DNA of 64,000 nucleotides. Origin: Terramyces sp. JEL0728 (lineage: Eukaryota > Chytridiomycota > Chytridiomycetes > Rhizophydiales > Terramycetaceae). Every line of letters starts with the position of its first letter. Position 1 is the stretch's first letter. Location of the stretch: positions 1-64,000 of the forward strand of contig JADIIU010000018.1 in the NCBI GenBank assembly GCA_027603945.1. Direction: 5' to 3'. This document shows positions 22 through 63,271 of the stretch, piece after piece. Below the pieces are notes generated by a model. That model was given only the letters and a program-made list of their open reading frames with translations, was not told where the DNA came from and did not search any database. The position numbers and the translations under genes were made by a program.

Positions 22-976
22 ATGTCGGGAGCGCAAAAAGTTCTCCTAAAGCTACGCAAGAATGTGCAGGGTAATTGGCATTAACGAAAGATGGAGATTA
101 TTACGAAGCCTACCAAATGTACCACTCAGTGTCCCAGCGATTCATTAAACAGAAAAAACAGGATCAAGCTGTTTCTCTACTTATGGACGGGATCAAAACC
201 ATGAACCAGCATAGCCAGCATGCATCCGCACTTGATTTAGCAGACCGTTTGATGGAATTATATGCGACACCAAATACCGACGCAATTTCCCATTTAGCCC
301 AAGTATTTTACACTTTCCCGTTGGATTCAGCTCAATGTGATTTGTTCATCAAGAATGCGTTGAAATGGTCCAAAAACGATAATTCTTTGAATCATGCATT
401 TGGATGTCGGTATGCCAAAGGTTAGTGCGGTTTAATGTAGATGGGCAATATTATAACGCTGAAACCCATTTATTTAACGGGACATTGGATTCAATCAAAG
501 TATTGGCAAGGATGGAATTGGAATTCAGCAAACTAGGGTACTACGATGACATGGGCTACTTTATTGCACGCGCGAGTTTGCCTTTACTTGCGCTGGGTAA
601 ATATTCTGAAGCAAAAACTTGTCTGGACCTATTCACTGCAGGGTTGGACTCGGATTTCCAAGTGGAAAATGTCAATGATACTCCAATTTCCAGACACAAA
701 CTGTACAATTTTACGCAGTTGCTGATTGCATCGATTGGGAGGAACCAGGGACATTTATTCAGCACCATCGTGAACAACTATCAAACGGAACTATCTTTTG
801 ATTCATTTTTGTTGGAGGTGACTTGTCTGTTAACATAGTGCGTAGCTCAAATCGGCAAAGTTTACTTTGGAATTGGAATCAAGCAAAAGCAAGCTAATCC
901 ATTTGCTGAAATTATGAAAACTATGTTGAATCCAACTCAGCAGTTGCAGATCGCCGAAGATTTAGATATGGATTGA
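22..976 (+). CDS. GET4: Get4-like factor of tail-anchored protein insertion
   Basis: Four exons (22-70, 91-420, 441-817, 839-976) give 297 residues, close to the roughly 310 usual for Get4. The helical-repeat signature (GDYYEAYQMYHSV, QDQAVSLLMDG, then DGQYYNAETHLF and IGKVYFGIG) matches the Get4/C7orf20 family. Get4 bridges the tail-anchored chaperone Sgt2 to Get3 through Get5 in the cytosol. The introns are 20, 20 and 21 nt, and removing each keeps the conserved frame. The start at 22 is the first ATG and gives the short basic N-terminus expected. The TGA stop runs straight into AATAAA. No frame damage is seen. Identification comes from family pattern, not from a search. Confidence 0.85.
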
Positions 977-1115
977 ATAAAGTTGTTAATTAAATTGGCT
1001 ATTAGCTGGAATCATTCATCTTTTGGTACAGGCTTGATGTATCACCTTTTGCGACGATTTGATGAATGTTCTCGCGAATTAGAAGGCAGTAAACTGAATA
1101 AGAGATTACTGACAG

Positions 1116-1586
1116 CTAATAAATCAATTCTTTTATTTTCCCAATCCAAGTTGGTTTTGTCAATCGCTTTTCCAATTCTTTCTTGATTTCAACAATCGGG
1201 TTGACTCTTCTGGGATGAACTGATCCAGCAACCAAATCTATCTCCTGGCTTTTGAAATCCAAGTCGATTAAAGAGTATTTTTGAAACTCTACAATTTTCA
1301 AACGCATTAAAGTTTCCATGTATTCCTTTCGGAGTTTCACCAAACGATCATCATTCTTTAGCTGCTGCGGATTTTTTGTTTGAGTGTATTGCTTCAAGTG
1401 ATTACTAATTTCCTGATTTTGAACAACAAGTTCTGGATGGGATTTGATTTTTTCGTCAAACGCTTTCTTTATTACAGGGGAGGATAGTAGGATATACAAA
1501 TCGTTTGGCTCTGTTAATTTAAATGGTATCCAATTGCTGTTTAGCCGAATTTGTTTTGAAATGAATTTTGAGATCTGGAAATGCAT
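1116..1586 (-). CDS. Hypothetical basic protein, possibly mitochondrial
   Basis: An uninterrupted 156-residue ORF from an ATG at 1586. I do not recognise the family. The first 25 residues are rich in Lys, Arg, Ile and Phe with no acid, which could be a mitochondrial targeting helix. The rest is strongly charged and probably helical, ending in a Lys-rich tail. It converges on GET4 with a gap of about 140 bases. Small mitochondrial ribosomal or assembly factors often look like this, but that is only an analogy. An intron near the start cannot be excluded. Confidence 0.45.
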   Translation of the reverse strand: MHFQISKFISKQIRLNSNWIPFKLTEPNDLYILLSSPVIKKAFDEKIKSHPELVVQNQEISNHLKQYTQTKNPQQLKNDDRLVKLRKEYMETLMRLKIVEFQKYSLIDLDFKSQEIDLVAGSVHPRRVNPIVEIKKELEKRLTKPTWIGKIKELIY

Positions 1587-2643
1587 AAATACTGAAGAAT
1601 TTCCAAGTGCAAAACAGTTTGTAAATGAAATAGGAAATGGGCTGCCACAGTGGTCTATCCGGTAGTTGATCTACAGTCTCTAGTTAACTATTGATTGATT
1701 TAATACGAGATTTTAGCTGTGCTTCGTTCTCGTATCTATCGAGCTTCCATATTCGTAAACGACTGGGTATACCATGCACGGAAGCTGCAGTATCAATAAA
1801 GAAACTTTCCAAAACAGCACTGGTCAGATTCATCTTCTACGGTTCACTCTTCCCTGCCGCATATTTTCTTTTGGCATCGTTCCTGCTGAATCTTGGAATG
1901 TTTTTTCGAGGTTTAGTTCCGCACTCGCAAAATCAACATTTTTTATCCAAGAATACATCTTCATGCAATTTAGTAAATTATCCGCAAACTACCGCTTTTC
2001 GAGCGGTATTCTTCAGGCTGCACCGACTACACTACCAAAATTGTAAATGGTCGACAGAGTTGCTGATAATCAAGTGTTCATTTGGCTTCGGGGAGATATT
2101 TCCATAGTTAATTATCCACTCAATAATCCGACGTTTACTTGTGGAAAATGTGCTACCTATGGAATTTTCACCCAATCAGATCCTATGTGCTTCCTGTTTC
2201 AGCATGGTGGCAAATGTACAAACCACAGCGAAAACGCTGGAAAACAGAAAAGGAAATACACGAGGTTCCAGAAAAGGGGTAGTTTGCCCCTTCGAATTCT
2301 ACCTTAGATCCTGTTTCCTTCCCTGTATCAACCCACGATGCTCCCTGCATTCCACTAACCCTATTGTTGCAGGTCTCGACTTCGGAATTGTACGGAATAT
2401 TGTGTGGCTTATCACACCAACTTAGAACACGCTTGATCGGAGTAATGCCCGCCAACACCAAAAACGTGCAGAAATGATCAAAAAGTGCGTATTAAGTGGA
2501 AAGACATACATCGGACCGCCTTTTATTTAAAAACCCAATGTCGAAAAATCAGTTACAGTGAAATCATTCCACTAATTTTTTTGGTGTGTGGTGGCGTTAA
2601 TTTCGTGACATTTTCACCTTTGGAAATTCTTTACAAACTTTCG
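1587..2643. other. Unassigned stretch upstream of the velvet gene
   Basis: About 1 kb with overlapping open frames on both strands (for example 1691-2107 on + and 2183-2461 on -). None gives a protein I recognise, and I could not join them with the roughly 20-nt introns seen elsewhere. It may be 5' leader or promoter of the velvet gene, a fast-evolving small gene, or decayed sequence. Confidence 0.3.
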
Positions 2644-6094: not shown

Positions 6095-6111
6095 ATTTTT
6101 GAAATTTGGAA

Positions 6112-10180: not shown

Positions 10181-11617
10181 ATGGGACATGAAGTATTAAT
10201 AGCGTGCGTGGGGAAACCATCAGCAGGGAAAAGCTCAATGTTAAATGCGAGTACTTTATTATAATATTCAGTGTCCGAAGCTTCTGCAAAAGTGGGGAAT
10301 TTTCCGTTTACCACCATCAAAGTACTCAAAATTAATATAGCCAAACCACGGAGTTGCATATGTTAATTTGCCATGCCCTTGTGCAAAGTTCAACAAACAG
10401 GCGGATTGCAATCCTAGACAGGGTAAATGTAACAATGGTATCCGAGCAGTTCCGGTACAAATTTTAGATGTTGCAGGACTGGTACCAGGAGCTTCCACAG
10501 GTGCAGGATTAGGAAACCAATTTCTGGATGATTTGAGAACAGCAGATGCGTTAATTCATGTAGTTGACGCTTCAGGAACAACAGATGAAAATGGAAAAGT
10601 TACTGTTGGATATGACCCAATCAACGATATTGATTGGCTGCGTTCTGAAATTCATAGGTTAAGCTATCTAATGCAAGTTGGGTGTACAATAATCTGATGA
10701 AGAAATGGCCAAATATCGTTCGCAGACATGTTGCTACAAGTAGATTTTGTTAATTCAGAATCACCAGTCGTCGAAACTCTGCAAGCTCAGTTCAGTGGAT
10801 ACGGAACAAACCGATTGATTATGAATCAGATATTGGACAAATTTTCAAACAAAGAACAATTGGAAACATGGAATGAGGATGTAGTGCTGCAGCTAGTAGA
10901 TGTTTTCTTGGATGTCAGATTCCCGACAATCGTGGTACCTTACGGTTTATGTAGGCGCTGAACAAAATTGATTTGCCAGACTCTGACAAGAATATCGACA
11001 ATATTTCCAGAAAGTATGGCCAGGTACATTTATGTAATTCCAGTCTAGAATAGTTTTGATTAGTGCATTGGCTGAAAACTTTCTGCGTAAGCTTCATAAA
11101 CAAAAGTTTCTCAATTACTATGAGGGAACTGATGCTTTTGAAACTCTGGACGATGTACAAGTAAGGTCAGATGGAGAAAAGCTACTCCCTATGGACGATA
11201 AGACAAAGACGCGGCTAGAAAGAGTACAGGATTTAGTGCTATTTAGATTTGGACATACAGGCATCCAGGAATGCTTGAAAACAGTGGTGGACGAGCTGGG
11301 GTAACAACTTTCTGACTAAGGCTGATCCCAGTGTATCCTGTTCGAAATGTAAATAATTTCAGCAGTTCTACCGGTGCTAGACAGGGAGGGGTATTCCGCG
11401 ATTGTTTATTGATAAGGCCTGGCATTACTGTCCGGCAATTGGCAGGAATGGTCCATCCAGAGCTGGAAAAATACTATTTATATGCCGAAACGGTTGGTAA
11501 CATCAGGGTAATCAACCATTAATATAGCTGGGCGAAGACGACCTTATGTCGACGAACAACAATATCATATCATTCAAGACTTCTCAAGAAATCAGCAAGC
11601 CGAAGCTGACCAAATAA
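10181..11617 (+). CDS. Obg-type GTPase of the Ygr210c group
   Basis: Nine exons with eight introns of 19-21 nt (10251-10271, 10322-10340, 10658-10677, 10740-10758, 10935-10954, 11024-11043, 11301-11320, 11508-11527) give 425 residues, against about 411 in yeast Ygr210c. Motifs: G1 [10 protein letters not shown]2 NFPFTTI, G3 [11 protein letters not shown]4 NKID, G5 ISAL, and a C-terminal TGS-like [19 protein letters not shown] zinc-like cluster [19 protein letters not shown] sits between G2 and G3 as expected. The P-loop is formed only by splicing and the first exon starts at ATG 10181. Likely a ribosome- or translation-linked GTPase. The stop lies in AATAAA. Confidence 0.88.
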
Positions 11618-11790: not shown

Positions 11791-13096
11791 ATGTCGCTCA
11801 ACGTACTAGTACTAGGAGGAGTTGGATTTATCGGAAGAAATTTTGTCACCTATTTGATAGAAAACAATCTCGTCAACAGCGTCAGAGTCGTCGACAAAGT
11901 ATTACCAGCAACAGCATACCTTGCAGCAGCACACAAAAAGATTTTTGCGGACCCACGGGTGGAATTCAAACAAGCGAATCTTGTTAATGCTGGTACTTTT
12001 TCGTTCCTATTTAGTGAGCATTCACAGAAAAGGTTTTTACGCGCGAGGATGGTAAACAATTTGATATTGTATTCAATTTGGCTGCTGAAACCAAGTATGG
12101 ACAAGCTGAAGAAGTAATTATAAAGTAATGTAGGTCTATGATGAAAAAGTGTTTCAACTTTCTGTAACAGTCGCCAAAGAAGCCGCGAAACGAAAAATTC
12201 GTGCTTTTGTAGAAGTCAGCACTGGGCAAGTATATGAAGCTGGAAAGGTGAGCAGCTGTTAAACTAGAAACCATCCAATGAAGAATCGAAACTTAAACCG
12301 TGGACTTTGATTGCAAAAGCAAAGGCAAAGGCTGAAGACGAAATTACAAAAATCCCCGGGTAATAATCATTTAACAATAGTCTCAATTTGATTATTATCC
12401 GACCTGCGATTGTTTACGGTCCATTTGACGTTCACGGAGTCAGTAATTTCTTTTAACCCGCAGCCCCCAGATTGATTATCGGTGCAGTATACAGCCACTT
12501 GAAGGAAGAAATGAAGTTCTTGTGGACCAAGGATCTCAAGATCAACACTGTCCACGTTGCAGATGTAGTTAGAGCGTTATGGCACGTAACTGCCACCACT
12601 GCTGAAAAAGGTGGAAGAGAATCTGCAACTGTTGCATCGCCTGAAATCTATAACCTTGCAGACAAGGGTGATACAGGTAATCATCATCTAACGGCAGACC
12701 AAGGAACAGTCAATACTTTTATTGAAAAGATTTTCAGCATTTCAACCGGCTTTCAAGGAACTGTTGTCTCGCAATTTGCCAAGGTGATTATCAATTAACA
12801 TCAGTTGAATCTGGAATCAATTACCGAAGATGTCAACGAAAAGCATCTCCAACCTTGGTCTGAACTTTGCAAAGCCGGTGAAATCGCCAACACTCCATTG
12901 ACGCCATACTTGGACCGCGAATTATTAAAGGATAACGCTCTTTCCATAGATGGCAGCAAAGTAACCTTCACTAAAGTAGATTGAAAAGACTCTTAACTTT
13001 AAATACATTCATCCTGAAATGACCGAGGCACTTGTCAGACAAGTAATCGATGAATTTGTTGAAGCTAAAATCTGGCCTGCTGGAACCACAAAGTGA
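11791..13096 (+). CDS. Extended SDR (NAD-dependent epimerase-like), atypical active site
   Basis: Nine exons give 378 residues. The nucleotide site GGVGFIGRNF is at residues 9-18, and FNLAAETKYGQ, FVEVSTGQVYEAGK and IRPAIVYGP follow in epimerase order. The usual catalytic YxxxK is not seen. The matching stretch reads LIAKAKAKAED with no Tyr, so activity as an ordinary epimerase is doubtful. Introns are 20, 20, 21, 21, 21, 21 and 19 nt, plus a first one (11993-12018) that I place at 26 nt, the longest in the window and the least certain boundary. Related proteins occur widely in fungi without a named substrate. Confidence 0.78.
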
Positions 13097-25420: not shown

Positions 25421-26306
25421 TTACTGTGATTTGTTGTTCAGCCAGCTGAAATAAGAAAAAATGAATTTCTCTTGCTTGGCGGTTTCAATAGCTTTTGGAC
25501 TTCTCCTCTCCCTGATCAATGCCACGCTGTCCTCTGGAGATGTGCAATATCCTTTTCGGATCAAGTAGCAACAGGCTATCACTGCCGCCCTCCCAATTCC
25601 TACGTTCAGTTCAATATACCTCCTCTGCAGTGGCAAAGGACATTGCTGTTGGCCGGACTATTTCTGTCCAGATCTACCAGCAGATTATCTATATCTTTGA
25701 CTGAATCTGGAGCACAGCCCTCTACAATTGGATATCGAACGACATGAATGTTGTTTCTCTTTGCAGCTTTACTAGTTTAACGATAATTACTAGTATTTCT
25801 CCCATGGTGCTCCAAGATAATCAAGCTCGTCGTTACCAAGACAGCTATATGAGTGTTAAATACCATATAATAGTTTTAATGTTGAGTCGTGCGATCCTTT
25901 GAAAGTCTAAATCCAGATCCCTGGCAATCATTGCTTTACCTCTTGTTGGTCCAGTCGCTAGGCGTACTTTTTTGCCTGGACATGAAGATAAGGCAAAATT
26001 ACCATGGCTTAATTTGATAGCTGGGAGCTTAGTTGCAGATGGAAGGCCGAGCGCTTCTTCAATTTCGAATTCTTCTCGTAATTGAGTTTCATGCGCAGCA
26101 TTTCTATGTATTATTTGTGGAATGAGCGTCTCCTCTGAGTCATCTACTCGTTTCTGATCGTTTTCATTTAATATCCAAGATATATTCAGCGGGTGCGATG
26201 TGGATGTTCTTGGAAACTTGATTCCAATATCACGGTCGGTTGGATATGCTATAGGGCCAGAATGGCGTTTTAAGCTTGGAATTGAGCCTGGTTTGATATC
26301 GGTCAT
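25421..26306 (-). CDS. CDKN3-like dual-specificity phosphatase
   Basis: Exons 26306-25864, 25844-25791, 25771-25620 and 25599-25421 give 275 residues. The signature CHCRGGIGRAAVIACCYL (HCx5R) is completed across the last 20-nt intron. The preceding general-acid region reads VVRYPIVEGCAPDS. Upstream LALSSCPGKK-type sequence and the tail RRSPKAIETAKQEKF match the CDKN3/KAP family that dephosphorylates CDKs at the T-loop Thr. Ala follows the catalytic Arg, as in some bacterial and plant relatives, instead of Ser/Thr. About 100 N-terminal residues are disordered. The start is 47 bases from the divergent carboxypeptidase gene. Confidence 0.82.
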
Positions 26307-45790: not shown

Positions 45791-46978
45791 ATGCTCAAGT
45801 TGCTTTTTGCTTCAATAATTTCTGCTTCACCTTTGCAACAGCGACCTTTATTCTCTCCGGAAGATCGTTTAATTTCCACCAGCGAAGGACAATCACAATG
45901 GATGTCGGAAATGCAAGTAATGCTTTGTTTAACGAGATTTTTGAACTATACAAGGACGGCGTAAAGTTCATTGACTTGACTGATGGTGATTTCGATTATT
46001 TGGAGCAGCACGCTGCAATTAATATTGCTTCCAACCCTGGTAATTTTTAGTTTATCAGATTTCCCAACTAAACCATCGTACCAAAACATTGCAAACCCGC
46101 TTATTGAGAAAATTGATACAAATAGAATGGAAGAGTTTTTGACTGCATTTTCAGGATTTCATACTCGTTACTTCAAGTCTGATTCCGGAAAAGAGTCTTC
46201 CCAATGGTTGTTTGATCAATTGGAATCGCTCGCTGAAAATAATCCTAGAGACGATGTCAAGTTTACTGTTACCAAAGTTATCCACACCTGGAAACAATTC
46301 TCTGTTATTGCGCGATTTGAAAGCGTAGAATCTGACAAAGAGGATATTGTTGTGCTCTCTGCTCATCAAGATTCCGTCAACCAATGGAATCCATGGTTTG
46401 GTCGCAGCCCGTAATCCTTGCTAATCTAGTGGTGCTGATGACGATGGTTCCGGAACAACAACCGTTTTCGAAGCATTAACTGTTTTGTGGAACCACGGAT
46501 TTGTTCCAAAGCGTCCATTGGAATTCCACTTTTACTCTGCAGAAGAAGGCGGGTTGCTTGGAAGCCAAAAAGTAGTAGCGCAATATGTCAAGGAAAAGAT
46601 TCCTGTTTACGGAGTTTTCCACAACGATATGACTGGATATCAGCCAGAGGATACAAAGCCAATTGTTGCTGTTAATACTGATAACGTCAACGGCCCACTC
46701 ACAAAGACTTTTGAAATGATTGCAAGCACTTATGCTGGAGTCCCGTGGGAATATACAAAGTGCGGCTATGCCTGCTCTGGTAATTATATGATGACCTAGA
46801 TCATGCTTCATGGACCAAGGCTGGCATTCCTTCTACATTTACTTTTGAAGCCAAGTTTGAAAAGCATTCGCCATTTATTCACACCACTCAAGACACAGTT
46901 GAGCATATTGATTTCAAGCACATGGCTTCCTTTGTCAACAACGTTATTGGGTTTGCTGTAGAGTTATCCTACTACTAA
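45791..46978 (+). CDS. Secreted M28 aminopeptidase, copy 1
   Basis: Exons 45791-45916, 45937-46039, 46059-46410, 46430-46779 and 46800-46978 give 369 residues. A signal peptide (MLKLLFASIISASPLQQRP) and a propeptide-like segment precede the M28 fold. Zinc ligands and catalytic Glu appear in [31 protein letters not shown] and [10 protein letters not shown], all intact. Fungal relatives are extracellular leucine aminopeptidases that digest peptides. The Cys pair CGYACSD, formed across the last intron, is a conserved disulfide. A tandem copy follows 183 bases downstream. Confidence 0.88.
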
Positions 46979-47160: not shown

Positions 47161-48361
47161 ATGAAGCTGCTCCTAGCATACTCAGTTCTAGCCGCACCAG
47201 CACATCGTCCACTCTTTTTCCAAAACGATAATTTAGATGTAGGAGTCACCAAATTCAATCCCAATCACCGCTTAATTTCCACGGCACCAGGAAAGCAGGA
47301 ATGGATGACCGAACAACAAGTATTTGCTATTAACTAGATCTTTAAACTGTACCGATCAAAGACTAAATTTATTGATTTGACTGACGGCGAATATACTTTA
47401 TTCAATCAAAAGAAGCGCAATCCTGTGTATCCAACCAAAACAAACGAAGCGCAATCAGTAAACGATCTGATCAAGCAAGTATCTACTGATCGCATGGAAA
47501 CCTTCCTGTCGTCATTTTCTGGTTTCCATACGCGCTACTACAACTCCAAATCCGGTAAAGAATCAAGCCAATGGCTATACGATCAACTATCAGATATTAG
47601 CGGTAGATCCGATGTTACGTTAACTGTAACTAAATTTGAACATTCCTGGGAACAATTTTCTGTAATTGCTCGATTTGAAAAAGTTGGTAATACGAACGAC
47701 GAGATTGTGATCTTGTCCGCTCATCAAGATTCTGTTAACCAATGGAACCCATGGTTTGGTCGCAGCCCGTAATCCTTGCTAATCTAGTGGTGCTGATGAC
47801 GATGGATCTGGCACTACAACTATCATTGAAGCATTGACTGTTTTGTATGAAAATGGTTTCGTACCCGATAGACCTTTAGAATTTCATTTCTACTCTGGTG
47901 AAGAGGGTGGTCTGTTGGGCAGCCAAAAAGTGGTTAAAAAATACACTGACGATGATATCAACGTTTACGCTGTTCTCCACAACGATATGACTGTGATAAT
48001 ACATTAATTTAGGGCTACCAGCCGGACGGTATCTCGCCAGTCATAGGGATATCGACGGATAACGTTGACAAGAAGCTCTCAAAAGTTCTTCAAATCATTT
48101 CCGAAGAGTACGCTGGGATAAAATGGGTAAACACTAAATGTGGTTACGCATGTTCAGATCATGCATCTTGGACTAAAGCTGGTGTACCTGCTGCATTTAC
48201 TTTTGAAGCTGCGTTCGAAAATCAAAGGTACCAATCATTAACCAAGCCCATTCTTGCACACTACTCAAGATACAGTCGAACATATTGATTTTAACCATAT
48301 GGCTTCGTTTGTGAATAACGTTATCGGGTTTGCGGTTGAACTGTCGAAATTTCAGCAATAA
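47161..48361 (+). CDS. Secreted M28 aminopeptidase, copy 2
   Basis: Exons 47161-47319, 47338-47768, 47788-47992, 48013-48227 and 48247-48361 give 374 residues. It has a signal peptide ([17 protein letters not shown]) and the same intact M28 ligands as copy 1 ([42 protein letters not shown]). Introns are 18, 19, 20 and 19 nt. The first and second match copy-1 introns 1 and 3; the last two have no counterpart there, and copy-1 introns 2 and 4 are missing here. A 57-base block around the shared intron is identical in both genes. Confidence 0.88.
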
Positions 48362-49625: not shown

Positions 49626-51533
49626 ATGGAAATCAAAGTAGAAAAAAGTTTAATGTAGAACGTTCGAATAGATCAAATAAAACCACCGCAGTCAATAAAC
49701 GGAAACCTGCAGATTACCAAACACCACCTGATTCTGGACGAATACCAAGTACTTTTACTTAACAAAAGCTACCACATTCACTCCTGCTCTCAATAATCAA
49801 AAAGCCCTGTAGCATTTATATTACTTATCGGCACTTTCTCGCAATCATTATTACATTCCAAATGGAGAGAGAGGTCAATGAAGCCTTTCAGCTAATTCAG
49901 AAATACATCAATATCAGTAACTATCGTTAACAAAAGGTTCTATTGAGGAACTGTATTGTTTTGAAAAACAAGTTATTTACAATACTCCTTGGTATGTGTT
50001 TGATCCAAGAGTAGATTTTGCCAGGATGGGATTAGGCGTAAACACAAACTGGAGGATTTCAACCATTAATGAAGCTTACAATTTCTCATCAACTTACCCC
50101 AGATACCTTGGAGTGCCTCAGAAAATTAGTGATAATACTCTTCGACATATTGGGAAATTCCGAAGTAAATCTCGTATCCCTGCGCTGTCATATATACACA
50201 AGAATCAAGTAAGTAGGTTTAATATAGGTTACTATAACTAGATCAGCTCAGCCAATGATTGGATTAAAACAGAACCGTTCAATCCAGGATGAAAAGTTAA
50301 TTGAAGCCATATTCAACACTAGCACTTGCCAATCGGACGGGATGCATCTGATTATAGATGCCCGACCTTTGGCAAACGCATTAGCACAGACTGCAATGGG
50401 TGCAGGAACAGAAAACTCTGACAATTACCAAGCCAAGATTGTGTTTCTAGGTATAGACAACATTCACGTTGTGCGAGATTCATTAAACAAATTGTATGAT
50501 GGTAATTATTTTTAATTGCAGCCTGTGTTTCCTTTGATAACCCTGTTATATCAAAAAGTGCTCTTGAGCGATCTGGCTGGCTAAAACACATTAAAAATAT
50601 TCTTGACGGCACATTAATGATTGTGCAGAGTGTCCATGTGCAGAACGAACATACCCTTGTTCATTGTAGGTAATATATTTTAATGAAAGCGATGGATGGG
50701 ACCGCACAGCTCAATTGTCATCCCTGGCGCAGGTGTGTTTAGATCCATACTACAGGACAATTGATGGATTCCAAGTGCTGTTAGAAAAAGAATGGATATC
50801 CTTTGGACACAAATTCCAAGACAGATGCGGCCATTTGTCGAGAGATTCAATGACTACTGAGCAAACACCAGAAAAGTCTTGGCAGCAGGCAAGTAAAAGT
50901 ATGCTAGGAGCTGCAACAAAGTTATTTGGAAATACATTCAACGCCCCATTAAACAATAGCACCATGTCTTCAGAAACTTCAACCCCAAACAATTTGGCAC
51001 CCAAAGAAATATCTCCAGTGTTTTTACAGTTTTTAGATTGCATGTACCAAATATGGACTCAATATCCAACTGAATTTGAATATGATCAACGATTATTAGA
51101 ATTTCTCTTTATATCTGCTTACTCTTGTCAATTTGGAAACTTTTTATTCAATAATGAACGCGAATTGCGGCAATTCACAAAAAAACCTGGCTATGGCGGC
51201 CAATCCATAGAAGAATGCACAGTATCCCTTTGGCAGTATCTCCAAGCACACAAAGAGACCTACTACAATGCAGTTTATACGCCTTCGGATGAAGAGAAAA
51301 TCCTATTCCCAAACACAAATAATCTAAAATACTGGTCTAAACTATACAAGCTATCTACTTTAGAAGAGCGCATGGAAAAGGCAGAGTCTCCATATGCTAC
51401 ACGGAAATCAACTTTTAGTGAAATGGACACTACGCCAAGAATGGAAAATGAGCCGCAGGTTGAAATGATTGATTTGCAAGATGCAAGCATACCTTCGCAC
51501 CCTTTGATGACTTCTGATAATCCTTGGCAATAA
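49626..51533 (+). CDS. Myotubularin-family phosphoinositide 3-phosphatase
   Basis: Seven exons (49626-49637, 49659-49748, 49769-49916, 49937-50208, 50228-50501, 50522-50669, 50690-51533) give 595 residues. Two tiny 5' exons complete the PH-GRAM domain (GNLQITKHHLILDEYQLPHS, then CSIYITYRHFLAIIITF). The phosphatase follows: FDPRVDFARMGLG, TYPRYLGVPQKISD, ITRSAQPMIGL, and the active site HCSDGWDRT, assembled across a 20-nt intron, so Cys and Arg are intact. It removes the 3-phosphate of PI3P and PI(3,5)P2 on endosomes, as yeast Ymr1 does. Introns are 19-21 nt. Confidence 0.9.
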
Positions 51534-52339: not shown

Positions 52340-54459
52340 CTAAACCTTGTCTGCCAATTCACCTGCTAAATCGAGCTTGGCTATGACGGAATGGTACAAC
52401 CTCTTGAACTCCCAGATATCACCACTGGCCCTCTTCAAGTCAACAATCAACAAGCCTTCAAGATTCTTGATCCTATGCACCATTACAAAGAATTTGAGGT
52501 CTGTTGTAGCTTCTTTGCGATTTTGATTGAGAATAGGAGGTAATGCACTTGTCCCATCAAACCCGCGATTATATTGTAATCCAAATTGTCTAATATATCG
52601 GAGTTTCAGCATCATGTTTGTGAATGGAGACCCAGCTTTCTTTTTCGGTTGGCGTACATCAGCGTGTTTTAACACACTCAACTTGTACGGATTGTCAGTC
52701 ATAGCAACATCCAAATCCATTTGTTTTAATGTCTGCACAACAATGGTTAACAGTCGGCTGGGAGGCAAGGTAGAAAGCGCATGTTGATCAATCGGTCCGG
52801 AATGATATTTGATACTTCGAATAGACTCCATGGAGCCATAGTGAGAAAGAGACTTGCTTTCGCTACGAGAATAAGATCGCGAATTCCTGTTCGCATAATC
52901 TATGATTAGTTAGCTATTACCTGTGGAGAATTTTGGTCTGTGGTCCATACTCTGCGCTCTTTTTGCTTCTTCTTGGAACTTTGATCGTTTGGAATCAAGT
53001 TGAACACTATTTCTTGAAGTTGCTTGTTTTGGACGGCTATAATTAATTTCACTCTGGGTAATTGCTGGGGAATGTTTAACTGTGTCTGTGGTCGAAAAGG
53101 AGGTAATACTTGCATTTGATTTACCGCTAACAAACGATACCTTGCTCTTTATGTCTGTTGGCAGCTCAGGCACTAAATCATCAGTCTCCACGGCAACTGT
53201 CATTTCGGGTACAGCTTCTGCAATATTTTCTTGCTCGCTGCCAGCTTCAGGGACTGTTTCCAATGGATTCAAAGCGGGCTGCACTTCCACAACCTCCACT
53301 TTGACTGGCTCTTCTTCCAACACCATCATATCTTGCAGGGAATAACTGATGGTAGGGATATCTTCCTCCATGTTAACAATAGACAGATCTTCATCGAATT
53401 CAACAGGCTCTTCAGGAACTTCATGTTGACGCACTCCATTAATTGGGATTGGTGAAGCGGGTACTTCTTGAACACCATATTCTACAGGTTTCAGTAGTCC
53501 AAGATGTTCAGGTAATGGAGTAAACATAGCCCAATACGGCTGCAGCCATCTACAATTAAAGAACTATTACTTATGAGACTTGATTTCTTCCATGGTAGCT
53601 CTTTCATTCGGGTTGGTGTTCAAAATTCGCTTCAGTAAATGCTTGCACTCTGACGTCAGTTTGACCGGGAAGGTCAATTCGGATTCGTAAATGTGTTTGT
53701 ACAACTGTGCCATGTTTTCGCCATCCTCGTTTTCGGGATCATCATCAAAAGGCAATGAGCCACAAACCATTGCATACAAGATAACACCACAACTCCAGAT
53801 ATCCGCTAGCTCCCCAATGTATTCGTCATTAACCACCAATTCTGGCGCGGCATAAACCGGTGAACCGCAGCTAGTGGATAATATACGGTCGCCCATAGGC
53901 TGATAAAAATTTGCAAACCCAAAATCTGTGATAATCATATTGCGGTTTTTGTCCAAAAGCAAGTTTTCCAGTTTCAAATCACGATGAACGTATCCGTTGT
54001 GGTGCAAAAAGGATACACCTAAGATTAAATCTATCGAGAACCATCAATCAATTGGAAAAAGAATTTGGCAGCTTCTTTTTCAGACAGGTTTTGTCTCGAC
54101 AGGATATATTCAAACAGTTCACCTCCGGATGCATATTCCAAAACCATTCCAATATGAGTATCATTTTCAATTACTTCAATCAGGTGAACCAAGTTGGGAT
54201 GGCTCACAGTTCTTAGAATGCCAATTTCTCTTTGCAATTTAAATCTCTTTTCTGTAGTAGTAACAGAATCCTTTTTGATAAACTTGATGGCAACCTAAAT
54301 TTAAGCGCTAAATACTTCTTCTCCGCTAGTTATATGATATCCAAGTTTAACTTTTCCGAATTCACCTTCTCCGATAGTTCTGCCAAGCCTGTAAGGGCCA
54401 AAGGTCCCTGTATTTTTATGCGAGTATGCTAAGTATAAGTTTGCGGATTTACTAGACAT
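52340..54459 (-). CDS. Kin1/MARK-like Ser/Thr kinase with KA1 tail, copy 1
   Basis: Exons 54459-54316, 54294-54042, 54018-53571, 53549-52921 and 52899-52340 give 677 residues. Kinase residues are intact: GEGEFGKV loop, VAIK lysine (at an exon start), HRDLKLEN, DFGFAN and AAPE. After a long acidic linker comes the array-specific YHSGPIDQHALST motif and a KA1 domain ending GDIWEFKRLYHSVI, which in Kin1/MARK kinases binds anionic lipid and restrains the kinase. Introns are 21, 23, 21 and 21 nt. This copy lacks the HYNxFGPY N-terminal motif of the other three and is the most diverged. Confidence 0.86.
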
Positions 54460-54627
54460 TGAAAATACTGTCAAAGGCGATGATCAATTGGCCAATTCAA
54501 GAACTTTTTCTGGTCTGCTTTTCATGCCCCTTTTAACGGAGGACGCCACCCACTTTGGCTGCGATGGTAGTAAATGAAAACTGTAAATGGAAAAAGTGAT
54601 GGATATGGTATATTAAAGAGGAAGCGC

Positions 54628-56392
54628 TTATATTTCTCCCTCAATTTCAAAGACAAAGTCCTTGTAAAATCGCTTGAATTCCCAAATGTCACCGTCGTAC
54701 CTTTTCATATCGACAGTGAAGAGACCATCCAAATTTTTCAGTCTGTGAATCGCTACCGTGAATTTCAAGCCGCTTTCTGCAGCTGTATTGGTTGGCTTGT
54801 CTGGTATTGGCTTTCCATCGTATGCATGGTTAAACTGGAGACCAAATTTCCCCATGTATATCAGGTTTTGAACCATTATTCCTGGAAAAGACATTAGCGA
54901 GTTGGCCAATTTGTTTTTAGCCTCAGATCTTGGATGGTCGGGAGATTTCTTGACTTTAATTTTGTATGGATCTAGAGTTTCTCTGTACTGTAGCTGCATA
55001 TGCTCGAGTACTTTGACGATCTTGAGTTTGATCTCATCTGGATGCATCTTACTTAGCGTTCTTTGATCGATTGGACCAGAGTGGAATTTTAGATTTTCGG
55101 TCGTTGACTTTGAAACGACGCTGTCCACTGCAGTATTTGTCCAAGCAGGAATATGGTTCTTGCTCAAGGTCGCACTGCGGATCAGCTCTGATTTTTCTTT
55201 CACTAAATTAATAAGAAATACTTTGGAAGACCGCGCTGTTGCTTTCGTCCATGCTCTTAGACCGGATCGGTTCAGGGATATCTTCCACATTGGCTTGAAC
55301 GTGAGGAACCTCCATAGGCAATACAGACGTTTGGCCAATCAGCGACATCGGCACAATAGAACTTTCGCTAACTGATTCTTCAATTTCGCTATCAAAAGGA
55401 AAATGGGACTCTTCATCCCATACGAGATCATAAGGAAAATACTTTACGTAATACGGCTTGCACCATCTAGGTTAGAATTGAGTACGGATGATTCTTGATT
55501 CCCTCTATATTAAGTCTGTATTTTGGATCAGGAACCAAAATGCTGCTGGCTAATGATCTGGCACTAGTTGATACATGCGATGGGTACATTAGAGTTGTGT
55601 TCATTATATACTTGTATAGTTTAACAGCATCTTCACCATCCAAATTTGTGCTGTCATCGTCGTATGGCAAATAACCACATAACATTGCGTACAAAATAAC
55701 TCCGCAACTCCAAATATCAACGGTTTCTCCCATATATTGGTTGTTCATCACCAGTTCAGGGGCTGCATAATGCAAACTGCCGCAGCTCGTAGATAACAGG
55801 TCTGCAGACCCCTTTTCAAACCAATTAGCGAATCCAAAATCAATAATAACAATATTCTTATCCTTGTCCAATAGCAGATTTTCCAATTTCAAATCACGGT
55901 GTGCAATACCCACACTTAGTAAGTATTCAACACCTTGAATTAACGAGAAGTACCAATGATTAGCTGTGAGAAATATTTTGCAGCTTCATTCTCTTTCAGA
56001 TACTGGCGCTCCTGCGAGATCATGTATTGAAACAGTTCCCCACCACAGGCATATTCCATAACCATTCCTACATACCTCTCTGTCTCCAATACTTCATATA
56101 GTTTAGCTACATATGGATAGTTAATTTGCTATGGTTAAATATGAATACCCTCAGGATTTCTATCTCCCGAACTAGCTTTTTGGTTAAATCCGGCGTCTTG
56201 ATATCCTCCTTTTTCACCAATTTAATTGCAACCTGCATTAGAAGCTGTTACTTCAGTATTGGTATCGAAATGGTACGCAAGTTTAACTTTTCCAAATCCT
56301 CCCTGTCCGATTGTTTTCAACAGCTTGTAAGGACCAAATGCATTGTAATGCATCTTGCGAGGTTTCTGTTCTGGAGTGCTGTGATCAACCAT
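54628..56392 (-). CDS. Kin1/MARK-like Ser/Thr kinase with KA1 tail, copy 2
   Basis: Exons 56392-56252, 56232-56149, 56128-55954, 55933-55486, 55466-55222 and 55202-54628 give 555 residues, the shortest of the four. GQGGFGKVKLAYH, VAIKLVKKEDI, AHRDLKLENLLLD, DFGFANWF and AAPELV are intact; the linker is short. FHSGPIDQRTLSK and the KA1 end GDIWEFKRFYKDF match its neighbours. Introns are 19, 20, 20, 19 and 19 nt, more than in any sister copy. It probably acts in polarity or the cell cycle like other Kin1/MARK enzymes (inference). Confidence 0.86.
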
Positions 56393-56507
56393 TTGAAACT
56401 TTCTGTATTACCCGACGCATTAAGTGTCTTTGTGCTCAAGTTGCACAGACTCGTAAATACAGGAACTGGGGAACTTGGAACCGCCTCAAAATATAAAGAA
56501 ATTCAGT

Positions 56508-58444
56508 TTATTCTTCCTTCAAATCTACTTTTTCGGATGCTTTTCCCTTTTCTAGTTCTATTTGTAATCGACCGATAAAGTCGTTGTAGAGATGCTTGAA
56601 TTCCCAAATATCTCCCTTCAATCTCTTGCAGTCGACAGTATAGAGTCCTTCCAGACTCTTTATCCTATGAATGGCCACATAGAATTTCAGTTTCTTCAGC
56701 ACCGGGTCCCTATTAGCTGGGACTGGAGGAATTGGTTTCCCATCAAACCCTCTATTGTATTGAAGCCCAAATTTCCCCATATACATTAGATTTTGTAGTA
56801 TTAGAGCAGGGAATTCAGCCAGTGCAGACGCAATCTTGGCGCTTTTTGATTTACCCGAATAGTTTGATTTAGCATTTGCACGGATCGTATGCGTTACTGG
56901 TGCTGCAGTGGAGCTGACCACAGTAGATTCAAAATCTGATTCTGAATCTTCTCCAAAATCTTTTTCAGTGTGCTGAACGATTTTCATCTTGTATACATTT
57001 GCAGTCAATAAAACATCCATCCCCATTTCTGTGAATACTTTTATAACGCGCTCCATTATCAATCCCGGTTCCAAGCTGGAAATAGCACGTTGATCAATCG
57101 GTCCTGAATGCAATTTAATCTTGTCTGCAGTTTCTTTTGCAGGAGGAATAAAGGTGACCACGTTTCTGGCAGCTCTGCTAACAGTGCTGGAACGAGACAT
57201 GAAATCGTTTGCTGATATTAAATCAAAAGTACTTTTTGGAATAAAATTGCCTCTGTCCAAGCTCATTGCTCTTATAGGTAAATCAGAGTCGTCAGTGCGA
57301 GTAGCTTTAGACTTTTCTGGACCAAATTGAAAGTTTTCCTTTTTGGTTTGAACCTGCATGACAGGGATAGCAGCTGGCTCATCCTTGTCTTCAGTTGTTT
57401 CTTCTAATGTGTTTATATCCGTCTTTGCTGCCTCTGCCGGCAATTCCTGGGCCGCAACAACTTCTTCAGGCACAGGAGAGATTGACTGCTTTGAAATTTT
57501 ATATTTTTCATAGTACAATTTGATCCAGCTAAATTAAATCAATTTACCTATGGGTCTTAATTTCATCAATGTTGGCCCGAATGGTTGGATCTGGCACTAG
57601 AATCCTGTTGACCAGAGATTTGGCTCCGTGGGATACATGGCTGGGAAAAGTGAGCTTGGTTTCCAAAATATACTTGTAAAGCTTCTGAGTATCTTCAGAG
57701 GTATTTGGATCGTCGTCGTACGGTAAATATCCGCACAGCATTGCGTAAAGAATAACCCCGCAACTCCAAATATCCACTGAAGCTGCAACATAAGAATCAT
57801 TAATAACCAATTCCGGTGCTGCATAGCATAAACTGCCGCAATTCGTATTCAACATATTCTTTGTCTCTTGTCCAAATTTATTGGCGAATCCGAAATCAAT
57901 AATTACAATATTCTTGTTTTCATCTAGAAGCAAGTTTTCCAATTTCAAATCCCTGTGGACAATTCCAAGATTTAAGAGATATTCCACTCCAACTACTAAC
58001 TGCGCAAAGTATTTTGCTGCTTCGTGCTCTTTTAGATACTGCCGATGCTTTTGGGTAATCATGTATTTGAACAGCTCACCTCCGGAAGCAAAAGCAGTGA
58101 CAATCCCTACGTATCTCTCTGTCTCCAACACTTCGTAAAGTTTTACAATGTATGGGTTGTCCAAACTCTACAGTTCAAATTTGAAGTACCTTGAGGATGT
58201 CGATTTCTCTGATTAATTTTTCTGTTCTCCCGGGTTTCTGAATATCTTCCTTTTTTACAAGTTTAATAGCGACCTATATTAGAGACCTGTACCTCGTTGC
58301 CAGTGTTTACATGGTGTGCCAGCTTAACCTTACCGAATTCTCCCTGTCCGACGGTCTTGGAAAGTCTGTATGGCCCAAATGAATTGTAATGCACCTTACG
58401 AGGAGCAGCTTTGTTAGTATTTCTGTACCTTGCTCCACTGGCAT
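56508..58444 (-). CDS. Kin1/MARK-like Ser/Thr kinase with KA1 tail, copy 3
   Basis: Exons 58444-58429, 58408-58293, 58273-58190, 58167-57550 and 57530-56508 give 618 residues. The first exon is only 16 nt. GQGEFGKVKLAHH, VAIKLVKKEDIQ, VHRDLKLENLLLD, DFGFANKFG and AAPELV are intact. The linker is Glu/Ala-rich, then LHSGPIDQRAISS and KA1 ending GDIWEFKHLYNDFIGRL. Introns are 20, 19, 22 and 19 nt. The catalytic part is closest by eye to copy 2. Confidence 0.86.
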
Positions 58445-58540
58445 AATGAAAGTGAAAAGTTCAAAAGCGGTTTCCATGTTTCAAGGTCCCAGACCCGATA
58501 TGGAAGTGCACAAACGAAAAAAATCATAGAACTATTTATA

Positions 58541-60876
58541 TTACTTATTTTCCACTTTTAAATTCAACAGAGTTATAAATTCGTGGTACAGCTTCTTGAA
58601 TTCCCATATATCACCACGGTATCTCTTTAAATCCACCGTCAGAAGCCCATCTAGATTCCTAATCTTGTGCACCATTACGTAGAATTTCAGTTTCTTTTCG
58701 CTTGGAACATGTGCGGCAGATGCACCCGGTAATGGCTTTCCATCATAACCGCGGTTATACTGCAATCCAAACTGGCCGACATTCTTTATACTCTGTACCA
58801 AACTGAAGGGAAACGAAGCCAAGACATTGCCAATTTTACTTTTTTTCTGAGGTACTTTGGGGTTAGCATTTACTAGCCTAGTGGAAGGCGCTGTAGAAAC
58901 CACTGATCGGCCAACACTAAAGTTTGATTCCGCAAAATCAGATTCAGAATTTGAATGGTCATCAATGTGTTCATCGCCTTGACGCACCGCCTTCAGTTTG
59001 TAAGGGTCATCAGTGTACAAAACTTCAAAGCCCATTTCATTCAAAACCTTTACAATCTTTACCAGCAATTCGCTAGCAGATGCGCTAGAGAGTGCTCTAT
59101 GGTCGATTGGTCCAGAATGGTGCTTCATTCTTTCTAATTCTGTGGTGGTGAATGGGAATGCAACTCCCATATCAGACTTCAAATGTGCACGAGTATTGTT
59201 TGAGCTTTTCCGTCCATATGTACTTTTAACAAACTCTTTGAACGATTGGGCTATGTTAATTAACAATTACTTTCTCCTCTAGTACTGTAACTTCTAGGTT
59301 GGTCAACACTTTTGGCCCTTGTAAAATCTTTAGGTAATTCTGGCTCCTGTGGAATTTCTGGGACTTTGAGCTTTTCTAATTTTTCTAGGGATTGCCGTAA
59401 CTTTTCCAACTTTTCTTGTGATTTTTCTTCCTTGATTTTGGAAGCGATGAGGTTATTTTTCAGCAAGTCGGGTGATTTTGGCATATCTTCCCTAGAGAGT
59501 GTTCTAGAAATTCGTTTGCTCTTTGATTGAGGTCTTGCAAGCTTCTCATCTGACTGCGATTTCACTGCTACTGGCTCCTTTTCTTTGGGTTGTTCTTTTG
59601 ATGATTTGGCCGGCTCTGTAGTGCTCTCTTGAGTCGCTGGTTCAGGGACCGACATTTTTTCTCTTGATTGAGGAGAAGCTATAGGTGATTCTTGTTTTGG
59701 TTGAGGTTCTACATTTTTAACATCTTCAAACTTGCCCCCAGCAATTGAGTTTGTAGGAGACGGTTCTTGCAATTTTACAGCATCAAAATTCTCCACCACA
59801 GTATCCAAGCTCGAATTCATAGGGACTGTCGGTTGCGCTCCAAAAAAAGGTGTCTTTACAGGAATCGGAGCGACTAACGGAACATTTGAATTGTTTACAA
59901 CGTCAGGCACGATAGCAGAATCGCTAGTCTTTGGCTTAACTGTTTTAGGATCAATGAACAAATGACGAAAATCCTGCAGGAATGGATGCTGTTTCATCTG
60001 CTGCATATTTGCACGCAGCTTAGGGTCGGTAACTAATATGATGCTGATCAAGTGTTTTGGAATTGAACGGACATGCGGCGGATAATCCAATTTGGCCTCC
60101 AGAATGTACTGATACAATTTGTTTACACTGTCTGCTGCATTTGCCATTTCATCGTCAAATGGCAGATATCCGCAAAGCATCGCATAAAGAATTACACCAC
60201 AACTCCAAATATCCGCGGATTCTCCAACATAGCAGTCGTTAACAACCAACTCTGGTGCGGCATAACATGGACTGCCGCAGCTAGTAGAAAGGTATTCTTT
60301 TCCGCCTCCCCTGGAAAACCTGTTTGCGAATCCAAAATCAGTAATTATAATCTTCTTGTTTTTGTCCAACAGTAAATTTTCCAGTTTCAAGTCTCTGTGC
60401 ACAATTCCGTTATCATGCAAAAAACTAACACCAACCAATAGCTGAGCAAAGAAATTGGCTGCTTCAAAGTCCTTCAAATACGTCCTGGCAAGGATATGTT
60501 CAAACAACTCGCCGCCTGAATTAGCAACAACAGTACCTGAGGCAAACTCCATTACCATTCCAATGTACCCCTCGGTTTCGATTACTTCATACAACTTAAC
60601 TACATGGTGGTGGTTAATTGATTTCAGAATGTCAATTTCCCTTATTAACTTTTCCCTTCGAGTGGGATTCTGGATATTTTCCTTTTTGATGAGCTTGATT
60701 GCAATCTTGCGTTAATTAATCCTTACCTCTTTGTTTGTTCGAATATGGTATGCTAATTTCACTTTGCCAAATTCTGCTGTTAGTTAATTGTCACCTCCTT
60801 GTCCAATGGTGCGGGCAAGGCGATACGGCCCAAAGGCATTATAATGAACTTTACGAGGCCCTTCTGCTGTCTGCAT
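58541..60876 (-). CDS. Kin1/MARK-like Ser/Thr kinase with KA1 tail, copy 4
   Basis: Exons 60876-60795, 60773-60727, 60705-60537, 60515-59271 and 59250-58541 give 750 residues, the longest copy. GQGEFGKVKLAYH is formed across the first intron. IAIKLIKKENIQ, VHRDLKLENLLLD, DFGFANRFSRGG and AAPELV are intact. A 300-residue Ser/Pro/Glu/Lys linker precedes HHSGPIDHRALSS and KA1 ending GDIWEFKKLYHEFI. The third intron (60516-60536) is 21 nt without a stop. Leaving it in would insert seven residues into the conserved FASGGELF turn, so I remove it. The stop is followed by 96 bases to copy 3. Confidence 0.87.
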
Positions 60877-61480: not shown

Positions 61481-61862
61481 ATGGCATCCGTTCTATTTTG
61501 CTCAGAATGGTAATAGATCAATTTAAATCAGTAATAATATGCTATATCCAAAGGAAGACAGACAAACCAGACATTTACTTTTCGCATGTAGAAATTGCGA
61601 CCATCAGGAGGATGCAGCACAATTTACAGTTTTTAAGCATGTAATTACACATACCCCGTTAGAACAGAGTTCAGCCACTGTAGATTTATCTGGAGATCCA
61701 ACGTTTCCTAGATCAAATAAACCATGTCCAGTGTGTGGACACCCCGAATCTATATTCTTTCAAAGTAGAAGTAAAGGAAAAGATGCCACCATGAAGCTGT
61801 ACTTTGCCTGCTGTAATAGAGAATGCAAGCATCGGTGGGAGGAAGGTGGTGGTTTAAATTGA
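61481..61862 (+). CDS. RPB9: RNA polymerase II subunit Rpb9
   Basis: Exons 61481-61509 and 61532-61862 give 119 residues (yeast Rpb9 has 122). The N-terminal zinc ribbon CSECNNMLYPKEDRQTRHLL is formed across a 22-nt intron and closes with CRNC. The C-terminal ribbon is CPVCGHPESIFFQSRSK with CCNREC. Both ribbons are complete. Rpb9 tunes start-site choice and transcript fidelity. Confidence 0.95.
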
Positions 61863-61906
61863 ATAATATAATCATAATTTTCCTTTTGTTTTTTCTTTCA
61901 AAAAAG

Positions 61907-62359
61907 ATGGATGATGAACTTGCGCAACTCAGAGCCAAAAGAATGGCAGAAATGAAAGCTCAAGTAGTTTAGACTTGATATTAGAGCGGACAAAGCATGG
62001 GATTACCAGCAGGAATGGCTGGACAACCTCAAAAGGAAGATCAGGAAAAGCAGAGGCAAATGGAGGATATGAGACACAATATGGTAATACGAATGTAACA
62101 GCAGTTGGCGCAAATCTTGAGCGGTGAAGCTAGAGAACGTTTGGCTCGTATCCGTATTGTAAAGGAAGACAAGGCAAGAGGCGTGGAAGATATGATCATT
62201 AGAATGGCGCAAACTGGACAAATCAGAGGAAAAGTATCGGAATCCCAACTAGTGGATTTATTAAGCCAAATCAGCGGGCAGCAGACGAAATCTACAAAAA
62301 TCCAGTTTAGTCGCAGAAGATCTGGGGATGATTCTGAAGATGACGATTTTGGACTTTAA
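61907..62359 (+). CDS. PDCD5-family DNA-binding/apoptosis-related protein
   Basis: Exons 61907-61963, 61985-62083 and 62105-62359 give 136 residues. MDDELAQLRAKRMAEMKAQ, LAQILSGEARERLARIRIVK, KVSESQLVDLLSQI and the acidic C-terminus match the PDCD5/TFAR19 family found from archaea to humans. In fungi (Sdd2/Ymr074c) it is a small chaperone-linked protein. The second intron ends CAGCAG, allowing one extra Gln; the family alignment favours the 21-nt form. It lies 44 bases after RPB9. The stop is TAATAAA. Confidence 0.9.
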
Positions 62360-62378
62360 TAAAACTGCTTGTTTTTAT

Positions 62379-63271
62379 TTACAATATTGAAATTACTCGC
62401 CAGTAATACTCTGGTTCCCATTCAAATTCAAATTCACCGCCATAGGATATCAATAAGGTGTCTTTGCCGATATCTGATGATAAAGTTGCAATCCCACCAT
62501 AGTTTTGGACGGCTATAACCATACTCTCGTCCTCATCGCTCGAATCCACAACAATTTTGATTTTTTCCCTTACTTCTGTCGGTACAAAACTCGATATTTT
62601 TGACATGAACCCCCAACAACTGTTTGGATTCACCACGTACAGCCTAAACAGCCGCTACCGTTAAATATCGCTTACTTCTGGATAGTGGTCTCTAAAGATC
62701 TCTATTAGATCTTGTAATTGTGCAAGTGAAGGATAGGTACCAATGTTTACCAGGTCCAAAACGATAGTGATTTTTTCTATTCCCTTGGGCATAATTCTGT
62801 GTTAGAGATTGGATACCTAATGCATCTTTCTATGTGAAATGCTAATAAACGCGTTTGTAATTCAAATTTGATCCAGTGCAAAGGAACAAGGTAAAGTATC
62901 GGATGTCCGCTGCTATCAAACCCATTAATGAATTGCTTCCCGTACTGCGAGGCGGCTTTATAATCCTCATAGCTGATTTCATTGGGTTTAAAAGTTCTTC
63001 TCCAACTCAATGTCTGTCCAAGTTTCCTTGTAGCTATTTTATGGCTCCATCCTGAAGAAAGTAATAGTCGCAGAAGGCAAAATGTATTACAATACGAAAG
63101 CTCTTGCTTCCTTTCCTTTATATCCGTCGACAATAAATTTATGCTAGCCTCTCTGAGGGTTTGGTATCCTTCCATCTGAGATTTATTTATAAACTGGATA
63201 TATTCTGGCTCCGCTGGATATTCACTCTTTGTCGCTGTGACAATAGGCAGGCTATTTTTGATCCCAAACAT
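62379..63271 (-). CDS. CRAL-TRIO (Sec14-like) lipid-transfer protein
   Basis: Exons 63271-62817, 62796-62676 and 62654-62379 give 283 residues. A CRAL-TRIO-N helix bundle (CLLRLLLSSGWSHKIATRKL) precedes the pocket: GFDSSGHPILYLVPLHW, then IEKITIVLDLVNIGTYP, then HYPERLFRLYVVNPNSCWGF, the last two spanning introns of 20 and 21 nt. Such proteins exchange phosphatidylinositol or other lipids between membranes. The ligand cannot be told. The start is 23 bases from the divergent GTPase gene. Confidence 0.82.

Follow-up and report, generated by a model that had tools for sequence, protein, structure and literature searches.

The first 64,000 nucleotides (nt) of a nuclear contig of the chytrid Terramyces sp. 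JEL0728 (Chytridiomycota, Rhizophydiales, Terramycetaceae) raise the question of whether a fungus can carry spliceosomal introns of about 20 nt as its ordinary kind. This stretch (contig C18, positions 1-64000; referred to as the window) belongs to an assembly of 15.0 Mb in 231 contigs, and its genes are interrupted many times by short segments that begin with GT and end with AG. A preliminary description of the window had claimed about 110 introns in roughly 38 genes, nearly all of 18-23 nt, had read them as spliceosomal introns of a fungus, and had extended the claim to the whole genome. As judged from the genomic sequence, the nuclear genome of Terramyces sp. JEL0728 almost certainly has U2-type spliceosomal introns of about 20 nt as its standard form.

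One line of evidence for this conclusion consists of 40 introns of the window (Table 1), here called verified, the removal of which leaves a continuous, conserved alignment with homologs or paralogs, the support being judged by eye. The set leaves out the known errors of the gene finder described below, as well as a myotubularin intron at protein position 103, where the alignment is weak; it is not a random sample, because its members were chosen where homologs or paralogs exist. Thirty-nine of the 40 fall within 19-23 nt (11 introns of 19, 14 of 20, 11 of 21, two of 22 and one of 23 nt), and the last one measures 26 nt. GT..AG ends are found in all 40, a pair that was already required by the gene finder proposing most of them. 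Eight belong to a YGR210-like GTPase, eight to an NAD-dependent epimerase, one to a homoserine O-acetyltransferase, three to a myotubularin-like phosphatase, five to two M28 peptidases, 13 to four tandem kinases, and one each to Rpb9 and a dual-specificity phosphatase. The only alignment gaps at these sites are in some Rhizophydiales GenBank models that look broken there.

Conserved motifs pointed out in the preliminary description are indeed restored: removal of 61510-61531 (22 nt) gives the FCSEC of the Rpb9 zinc ribbon, the myotubularin active site HCSDGWDR is interrupted by 50670-50689, and 25600-25619 interrupts HCRGGIGR, the signature of dual-specificity phosphatases, as read by eye, while the P-loop of the GTPase, GKPSAGKSS, lies four residues upstream of intron 10251-10271. 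The protein encoded by 29017-30357 has 100% identity over 439 residues with GenBank entry HDV01_002414, whose model already omits 29738-29758. This one model and the continuity of the spliced proteins lend indirect support to removal of the segments from mRNA. On the match to Terramyces sp. JEL0728, a member of Chytridiomycota, a nucleomorph, ciliate or rhizarian origin of the DNA was rejected, and the preliminary description was correct in calling the organism a fungus. When two intron-rich genes were searched, no Terramyces protein appeared in the best 120 clusters listed. Paralogs provide a further line of evidence: one intron position and phase is common to all four kinases, with lengths of 21, 19, 19 and 21 nt, and the remaining positions occur in some copies only.

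The anatomy of the verified introns is narrow as well. A YTRAY-like branch motif is present in 35 of 40, versus 391 of the 2162 strings of 18-23 nt that run from GT to AG by chance in the window, a total that also takes in the true introns; among these 35, the branch A lies at nt 14-15 in 31 and is followed by a 3′ tail of 5-6 nt in 32. The donor consists of GTA and then T-rich positions. In U2-type donors elsewhere a G at +5 is usual, typical rather than defining, but it is rare here: T occupies +5 in 24 of the 40 verified introns and G in three. In a motif-blind run over the window, in which donor and branch motifs were unused in calling, 19 of 33 short introns have T and five have G at +5, and YTRAY lies near the 3′ end in 22; in a set of 375 introns called with a donor-aware model, +5 G amounts to 16%. 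U12-type introns, whose donor is RTATCCTT, were rejected, none of the 40 verified donors matching that sequence by eye.

The length class also emerges from gene prediction. A home-made gene finder took 46 long open frames as its first training set and its own calls as the next. In a flat-prior run over the window, with all intron lengths of 10-150 nt equally likely and GT..AG as the sole signal, it placed 32 of 64 introns at 18-21 nt. In control runs with the 15 other dinucleotide pairs, 2-8 introns fell in the 17-22 nt class, versus 33 for GT..AG, which is thus distinct among the 16 pairs tested in the window. The refined model yields 127 introns in 51 gene models of the window, 118 of them of 17-24 nt (three of 18, 30 of 19, 48 of 20, 29 of 21, four of 22, three of 23 and one of 24 nt), so that the counts of the preliminary description are approximately borne out. 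The model has known errors: intron 4 of gene g9 is misplaced, introns 9 and 10 (3′ end) of g10 are false, the phosphatase gene is read in the wrong frame around a correct intron, and at Rpb9 a false intron is placed at 61799-61821, 61510-61531 is missed and the gene is fused with the next one (61539-62359), which is presumably PDCD5-like.

Longer calls behave differently from the short class. Across the window and the genomic samples introduced below, 28 of 145 flat-prior calls measure 37-60 nt and 33 are longer, with an uneven spread. YTRAY occurs in seven of the 28 calls of 37-60 nt, versus 50 of the 67 calls in the 18-22 nt class and 587 of 8469 chance strings; A at +3 is found in 56 of the 67 and in 10 of the 28, and GTA with T at +5 in 32 of the 67 and in one of the 28. 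In the window, 28 flat-prior calls exceed 22 nt, and 14 of these overlap short introns predicted by the refined model, so that many of the longer calls look like mis-spans of short introns. Counts of GT..YTRAY..AG compared with the reversed sequence were uninformative, because the motif is biased by composition, and a stricter intron-like pattern in exons (none observed, 2.6 expected) offers too few cases.

The genome beyond the window was sampled on 12 other contigs, in 13 stretches of 10 kb each; ten were put at arbitrary places and three around zinc-ribbon hits. Together with the window they make up about 1.3% of the genome. The refined model places 227 of 263 sample introns at 17-24 nt and finds this class in all 13 stretches, whereas the flat prior (here 10-400 nt) assigns 34 of 81 introns to the 18-22 nt class and does so in nine of the 13; the claim that the trait is genome-wide has held up to this extent, and the lengths form a narrow peak below 25 nt in window and samples. 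Intron density is about 2.3 per kb of modelled coding sequence. By extrapolation, the genome would contain about 26,000 such introns, model errors included.

An independent view is offered by a 61.8-kb unit that is present twice on the contig, directly adjoining (35312-97113 and 97114-158891), with 98.74% identity, and that reflects either a tandem duplication of recent date or an assembly that placed two haplotypes end to end. Only one of the copies was used for gene calling. Divergence at the first, second and third codon positions is 0.47, 0.29 and 1.94%, and this four to seven times faster change at third positions indicates that the genes are under selection. Intergenic divergence is 1.46%, and the interiors of short introns differ at 28 of 1751 positions (1.60%), versus five of 519 (0.96%) in the few longer calls. 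At the splice ends none of 236 GT and one of 236 AG changed, and the call with the changed AG is itself doubtful and has no clear branch motif (for GT plus AG in the short class, P of at most one change at the interior rate is 0.0075); the branch TAA changed at one of 327 positions (P = 0.013 versus the spacer and +4 to +6). In the other copy, verified intron 48228-48246 has one extra base, a change that in coding sequence would destroy the reading frame. Of 65 insertions or deletions (indels) between the copies, 17 touch predicted coding sequence (49,273 nt) and 47 lie in 9,787 nt of intergenic DNA.

Components of the splicing machinery were sought as well, as the preliminary description had proposed, and U2, U5 and a U2AF65-like gene are present in the assembly, while U1 was found neither with a covariance model nor with a pattern. 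The U2 small nuclear RNA (snRNA) scores 140 bits and is canonical, with the branch-pairing GUAGUA intact, and carries GTGTAGTATCTG. The U5 snRNA (86 bits) is also canonical and its exon-pairing loop is intact; two tRNA genes of equal score (L032:1901-1982 and 2330-2411) stand close after its gene. The U2AF65-like gene lies at C2:44938-46279 and matches with 252 bits, the next best match having 58; the match contains four in-frame stops, as unspliced short introns would give.

The spliceosomal reading is thus supported by GT..AG ends, the YTRAY-like branch, restored proteins, presence and absence among paralogs, near-neutral interior divergence with frozen ends, and the presence of U2, U5 and a U2AF65-like gene. 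Several observations, however, weigh against it. Five of the 40 verified introns have no clear branch motif in the scored interval; 34 of 420 introns called by the refined model, real or false, measure at least 28 nt; and the flat prior shows no 18-22 nt intron in four of the 13 samples. Intron-like strings are depleted in exons (35 observed, 50.1 expected), but equally so at a spacing of 31-35 nt (31 versus 51.3), so that this depletion says nothing on 20 nt. The U2AF65 match remains under the curated cut-off of 310 bits, and the control also matched two bacteria below the cut-off. Fourteen of the 17 coding indels that separate the two copies have lengths not divisible by three, several of them lying in two tight groups, and some gene models or bases must therefore be wrong there. 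Finally, neither U1 (covariance model even at E≤10; no short-pattern match) nor U6 (covariance model and short patterns, not all weak pattern matches having been read) was found in the whole assembly, in searches run without a fungal positive control on 231 contigs; in the U1 controls, one search gave no control match and another matched nine prokaryotes below the cut-off. U6 model matches on contigs C199 and C111 (27 bits, gathering score 44) were rejected, as by eye they lie inside a membrane-protein-like gene; the pattern matches read by eye (8/13, 1/1 and 5/8) do not resemble U6, and an intron-tolerant U6 pattern had no match over the genome. U6 is hardly truly absent, so that search or assembly is at fault at least in its case, and no conclusion is drawn for U1 either.

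Some of these points could be taken to mean that sequencing or assembly indels, or pseudogenes, imitate introns, random frame breaks having been stitched together: open frames are short (57 of at least 150 codons on both strands), and the off-frame coding indels belong to a contig that holds a suspicious 61.8-kb repeat. This has practically no probability, since the inserts at the verified breaks measure 19-26 nt, rather than the 1-2 nt of indels, have GT..AG ends and in most cases contain a branch motif; control dinucleotide pairs fail, an indel origin is opposed by the constancy of length, by the motifs and by comparison of the paralogs, the genes are under selection, and indels are far rarer in predicted coding than in intergenic sequence. 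Uniform short inserts that break the frame would look alike in DNA if they were retained in mRNA and skipped by the ribosome, as translational bypassing elements are in some yeast mitochondria. The genes are nuclear, however, GT..AG and a branch complementary to U2 are spliceosomal signals, intron positions are common to paralogs and U2, U5 and a U2AF65-like gene are present, so that bypassing is likewise negligible as an explanation.

The calls of at least 28 nt and the uneven spread of the long flat-prior calls would also fit an ultrashort class that is real but a minority, with ordinary-length introns missed by a model tuned to short ones. This is very improbable: the calls of 37-60 nt are mostly without motifs and many look like mis-spans, no verified intron exceeds 26 nt, and the refined model gives the short class a large majority in the samples. 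A further rival, unlikely but less remote, is a spliceosome so degraded or diverged that, as in reduced parasites, it has little or no U1 function, and in which donors are chosen by U6 or U5 alone; the loss of +5 G would then follow, and both the empty U1 search at E≤10 and the rarity of +5 G among verified donors agree with it. On the other side, U6 was likewise not found and is hardly absent, and the sensitivity of the U1 search in fungal genomes is undemonstrated. It is also conceivable, although it must be regarded as doubtful, that donor recognition was rebuilt as introns shrank in the Rhizophydiales chytrids near Terramyces, with +5 G lost and U1, and possibly U6, altered or interrupted by 20-nt introns of their own beyond what standard models recognize. 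If true, the spliceosome of a cultured fungus would be re-tuned and would handle tens of thousands of 20-nt introns; should more than a known rare class be involved, the unusual donor and the unfound U1 and U6 are where it could show.

For U2-type splicing of introns of about 20 nt, the following mechanism can be proposed. The entire intron would be recognized as a single unit, U2 pairing with the branch site via its intact GUAGUA and the donor being read mainly via GTA and the T-rich stretch, the customary +5 G being absent. The shortness of the tail would lead to use of the first AG past the branch, and the product would be a lariat of about 14-15 nt with a tail of 5-6 nt. This arrangement would leave little room for an ordinary polypyrimidine tract, so that U2AF may bind differently or be less needed. 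The length is probably set by the lower limit of the spliceosome together with a deletion bias.

Close relatives such as Boothiomyces likely have ultrashort introns too. The GenBank epimerase of Boothiomyces macroporosus contains seven extra residues, GNQSLTI, exactly at intron 12677-12697; their back-translation fits GTAATC...YTNAC...ATAG in the same phase, and the model thus likely keeps a 21-nt intron as seven residues. In the GTPase and epimerase alignments, several models of Boothiomyces, Globomyces and Kappamyces start late, skip, gain or lose pieces at intron sites (P0121, P0126, P0129, P0242, P0243 and P0283; intact examples are P0241 and P0245). The broken models at such sites suggest that the trait is probably common to part of Rhizophydiales and that some annotations have been harmed, which affects comparative work on early fungi.

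Table 1. Verified introns of the window, with position, strand and type of support.
Intron	Length (nt)	Position	Strand	Support
YGR210-like GTPase, intron 1	21	10251..10271	+	four residues past P-loop; continuous versus chytrid orthologs whose models cover the site
YGR210-like GTPase, intron 2	19	10322..10340	+	chytrid orthologs
YGR210-like GTPase, intron 3	20	10658..10677	+	corrected protein versus orthologs, by eye
YGR210-like GTPase, intron 4	19	10740..10758	+	gene-finder position wrong, corrected from orthologs by eye
YGR210-like GTPase, intron 5	20	10935..10954	+	chytrid orthologs
YGR210-like GTPase, intron 6	20	11024..11043	+	chytrid orthologs
YGR210-like GTPase, intron 7	20	11301..11320	+	chytrid orthologs
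YGR210-like GTPase, intron 8	20	11508..11527	+	chytrid orthologs
NAD-dependent epimerase, intron 1	26	11993..12018	+	homolog alignment; sole verified intron >23 nt
NAD-dependent epimerase, intron 2	20	12114..12133	+	homolog alignment
NAD-dependent epimerase, intron 3	20	12248..12267	+	homolog alignment
NAD-dependent epimerase, intron 4	21	12360..12380	+	homolog alignment
NAD-dependent epimerase, intron 5	21	12443..12463	+	homolog alignment
NAD-dependent epimerase, intron 6	21	12677..12697	+	homolog alignment; GNQSLTI extra in Boothiomyces macroporosus protein
NAD-dependent epimerase, intron 7	21	12784..12804	+	homolog alignment
NAD-dependent epimerase, intron 8	19	12961..12979	+	homolog alignment
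dual-specificity phosphatase	20	25600..25619	-	splits signature between HCRGG and IGR; frames read by eye
homoserine O-acetyltransferase	21	29738..29758	+	spliced protein identical to HDV01_002414
M28 peptidase g40	19	46411..46429	+	position and sequence common to g41
M28 peptidase g40	20	46780..46799	+	not in paralog g41
M28 peptidase g41	19	47769..47787	+	common to g40
M28 peptidase g41	20	47993..48012	+	not in paralog g40
M28 peptidase g41	19	48228..48246	+	not in g40; 1 nt longer in second locus copy
myotubularin-like phosphatase	19	50209..50227	+	homolog alignment
myotubularin-like phosphatase	20	50502..50521	+	local alignment gapless, weakly conserved
myotubularin-like phosphatase	20	50670..50689	+	inside active-site motif HCSDGWDR
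kinase g45	21	53550..53570	-	position common to g46, g47
kinase g45	23	54019..54041	-	position common to g46
kinase g45	21	54295..54315	-	position common to all four kinases
kinase g46	19	55467..55485	-	common to g45, g47
kinase g46	20	55934..55953	-	common to g45
kinase g46	20	56129..56148	-	common to g47
kinase g46	19	56233..56251	-	common to all four kinases
kinase g47	19	57529..57547	-	common to g45, g46
kinase g47	22	58168..58189	-	common to g46
kinase g47	19	58274..58292	-	common to all four kinases
kinase g48	21	60516..60536	-	g48 only
kinase g48	21	60706..60726	-	common to all four kinases
kinase g48	21	60774..60794	-	g48 only
Rpb9	22	61510..61531	+	splits first zinc ribbon between FCSEC and NN

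Other features of the window include the kinase array itself, four genes in tandem at 52340-60876 on the minus strand with intron positions partly common and partly private, one of which is MARK/Snf1-like according to the best solved structures. At 39106-42327, about five short paralogs of what we take to be the SKP1 family are clustered on both strands, with 20-nt introns modelled in some only, and a 62-bp direct repeat in two copies occupies 28688-28801.

Terramyces adds a new and apparently independent fungal member to a known but rare class, that of ultrashort spliceosomal introns. In the parts of the literature consulted, introns of at most 25 nt as the standard form are known from relic algal nuclei, some ciliates and mikrocytid parasites (PMC10245619, PMC5014332, PMC9505925). 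A search of open papers yielded no account of ultrashort introns from any fungus, chytrids included, so that the statement of the preliminary description that no fungal case was well described has stood up there; subscription papers, which lay mostly outside this search, may hold an earlier mention. A chytrid case separates the trait from parasitic genome reduction and from ciliate nuclear biology, and brings the question within the kingdom of the yeast spliceosome structures. The genus is, we assume, a free-living saprobe. Its introns, near the shortest known in any cell, would be a possible new subject for studying how short an intron the splicing machinery can handle. JEL strains belong to a culture collection, as far as the consulted part of PMC7537106 indicates, and a fungus may therefore become available for tests of the intron size limit, of lariats of about 15 nt and of whether U2AF and +5 G are needed.

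The closest likeness in length is with the nucleomorphs of chlorarachniophytes, where introns of 18-21 nt, more than 800 in about 300 genes, are cited in the portion of PMC10245619 consulted; the range is nearly identical to that of Terramyces and the introns are many per genome, but a nucleomorph is the relic nucleus of an alga after extreme reduction, whereas Terramyces has a fungal genome of 15 Mb. According to the sections consulted of PMC9505925, the heterotrich ciliate Stentor coeruleus has introns of 15-16 nt with the branch A at nt 10 and a 5-nt tail, keeps homologs of U2AF1 and U2AF2, and has introns in 18% of its genes, mostly one. The near-fixed branch A and the short tail recall Terramyces; however, the branch motif of Stentor is weak, while that of Terramyces is YTRAY-like, and, the tails being alike, the difference lies between donor and branch. 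Mikrocytos mackini, as described in the same portion of PMC10245619, has introns of 16-17 nt that resemble those of Terramyces in their narrow length range and conserved motifs. Mikrocytids, however, are rhizarian parasites with a reduced spliceosome, and the predicted introns of M. mackini number 224, whereas in the fungus Terramyces 127 are modelled in the window alone. Paramecium, a ciliate, shares ultrashort introns as the standard form, although they are longer, about 25 nt (25-45 nt), in the part of PMC5014332 consulted. Among fungi, the survey in PMC8476143, as far as consulted, reports that high intron density is kept in chytrids, with two Chytridiomycota in its Table 1, and gives Cryptococcus, with a mean of 63 bp, as an example of short introns; both these and the Terramyces introns are spliceosomal, but those of Terramyces, at about 20 nt, are far shorter.

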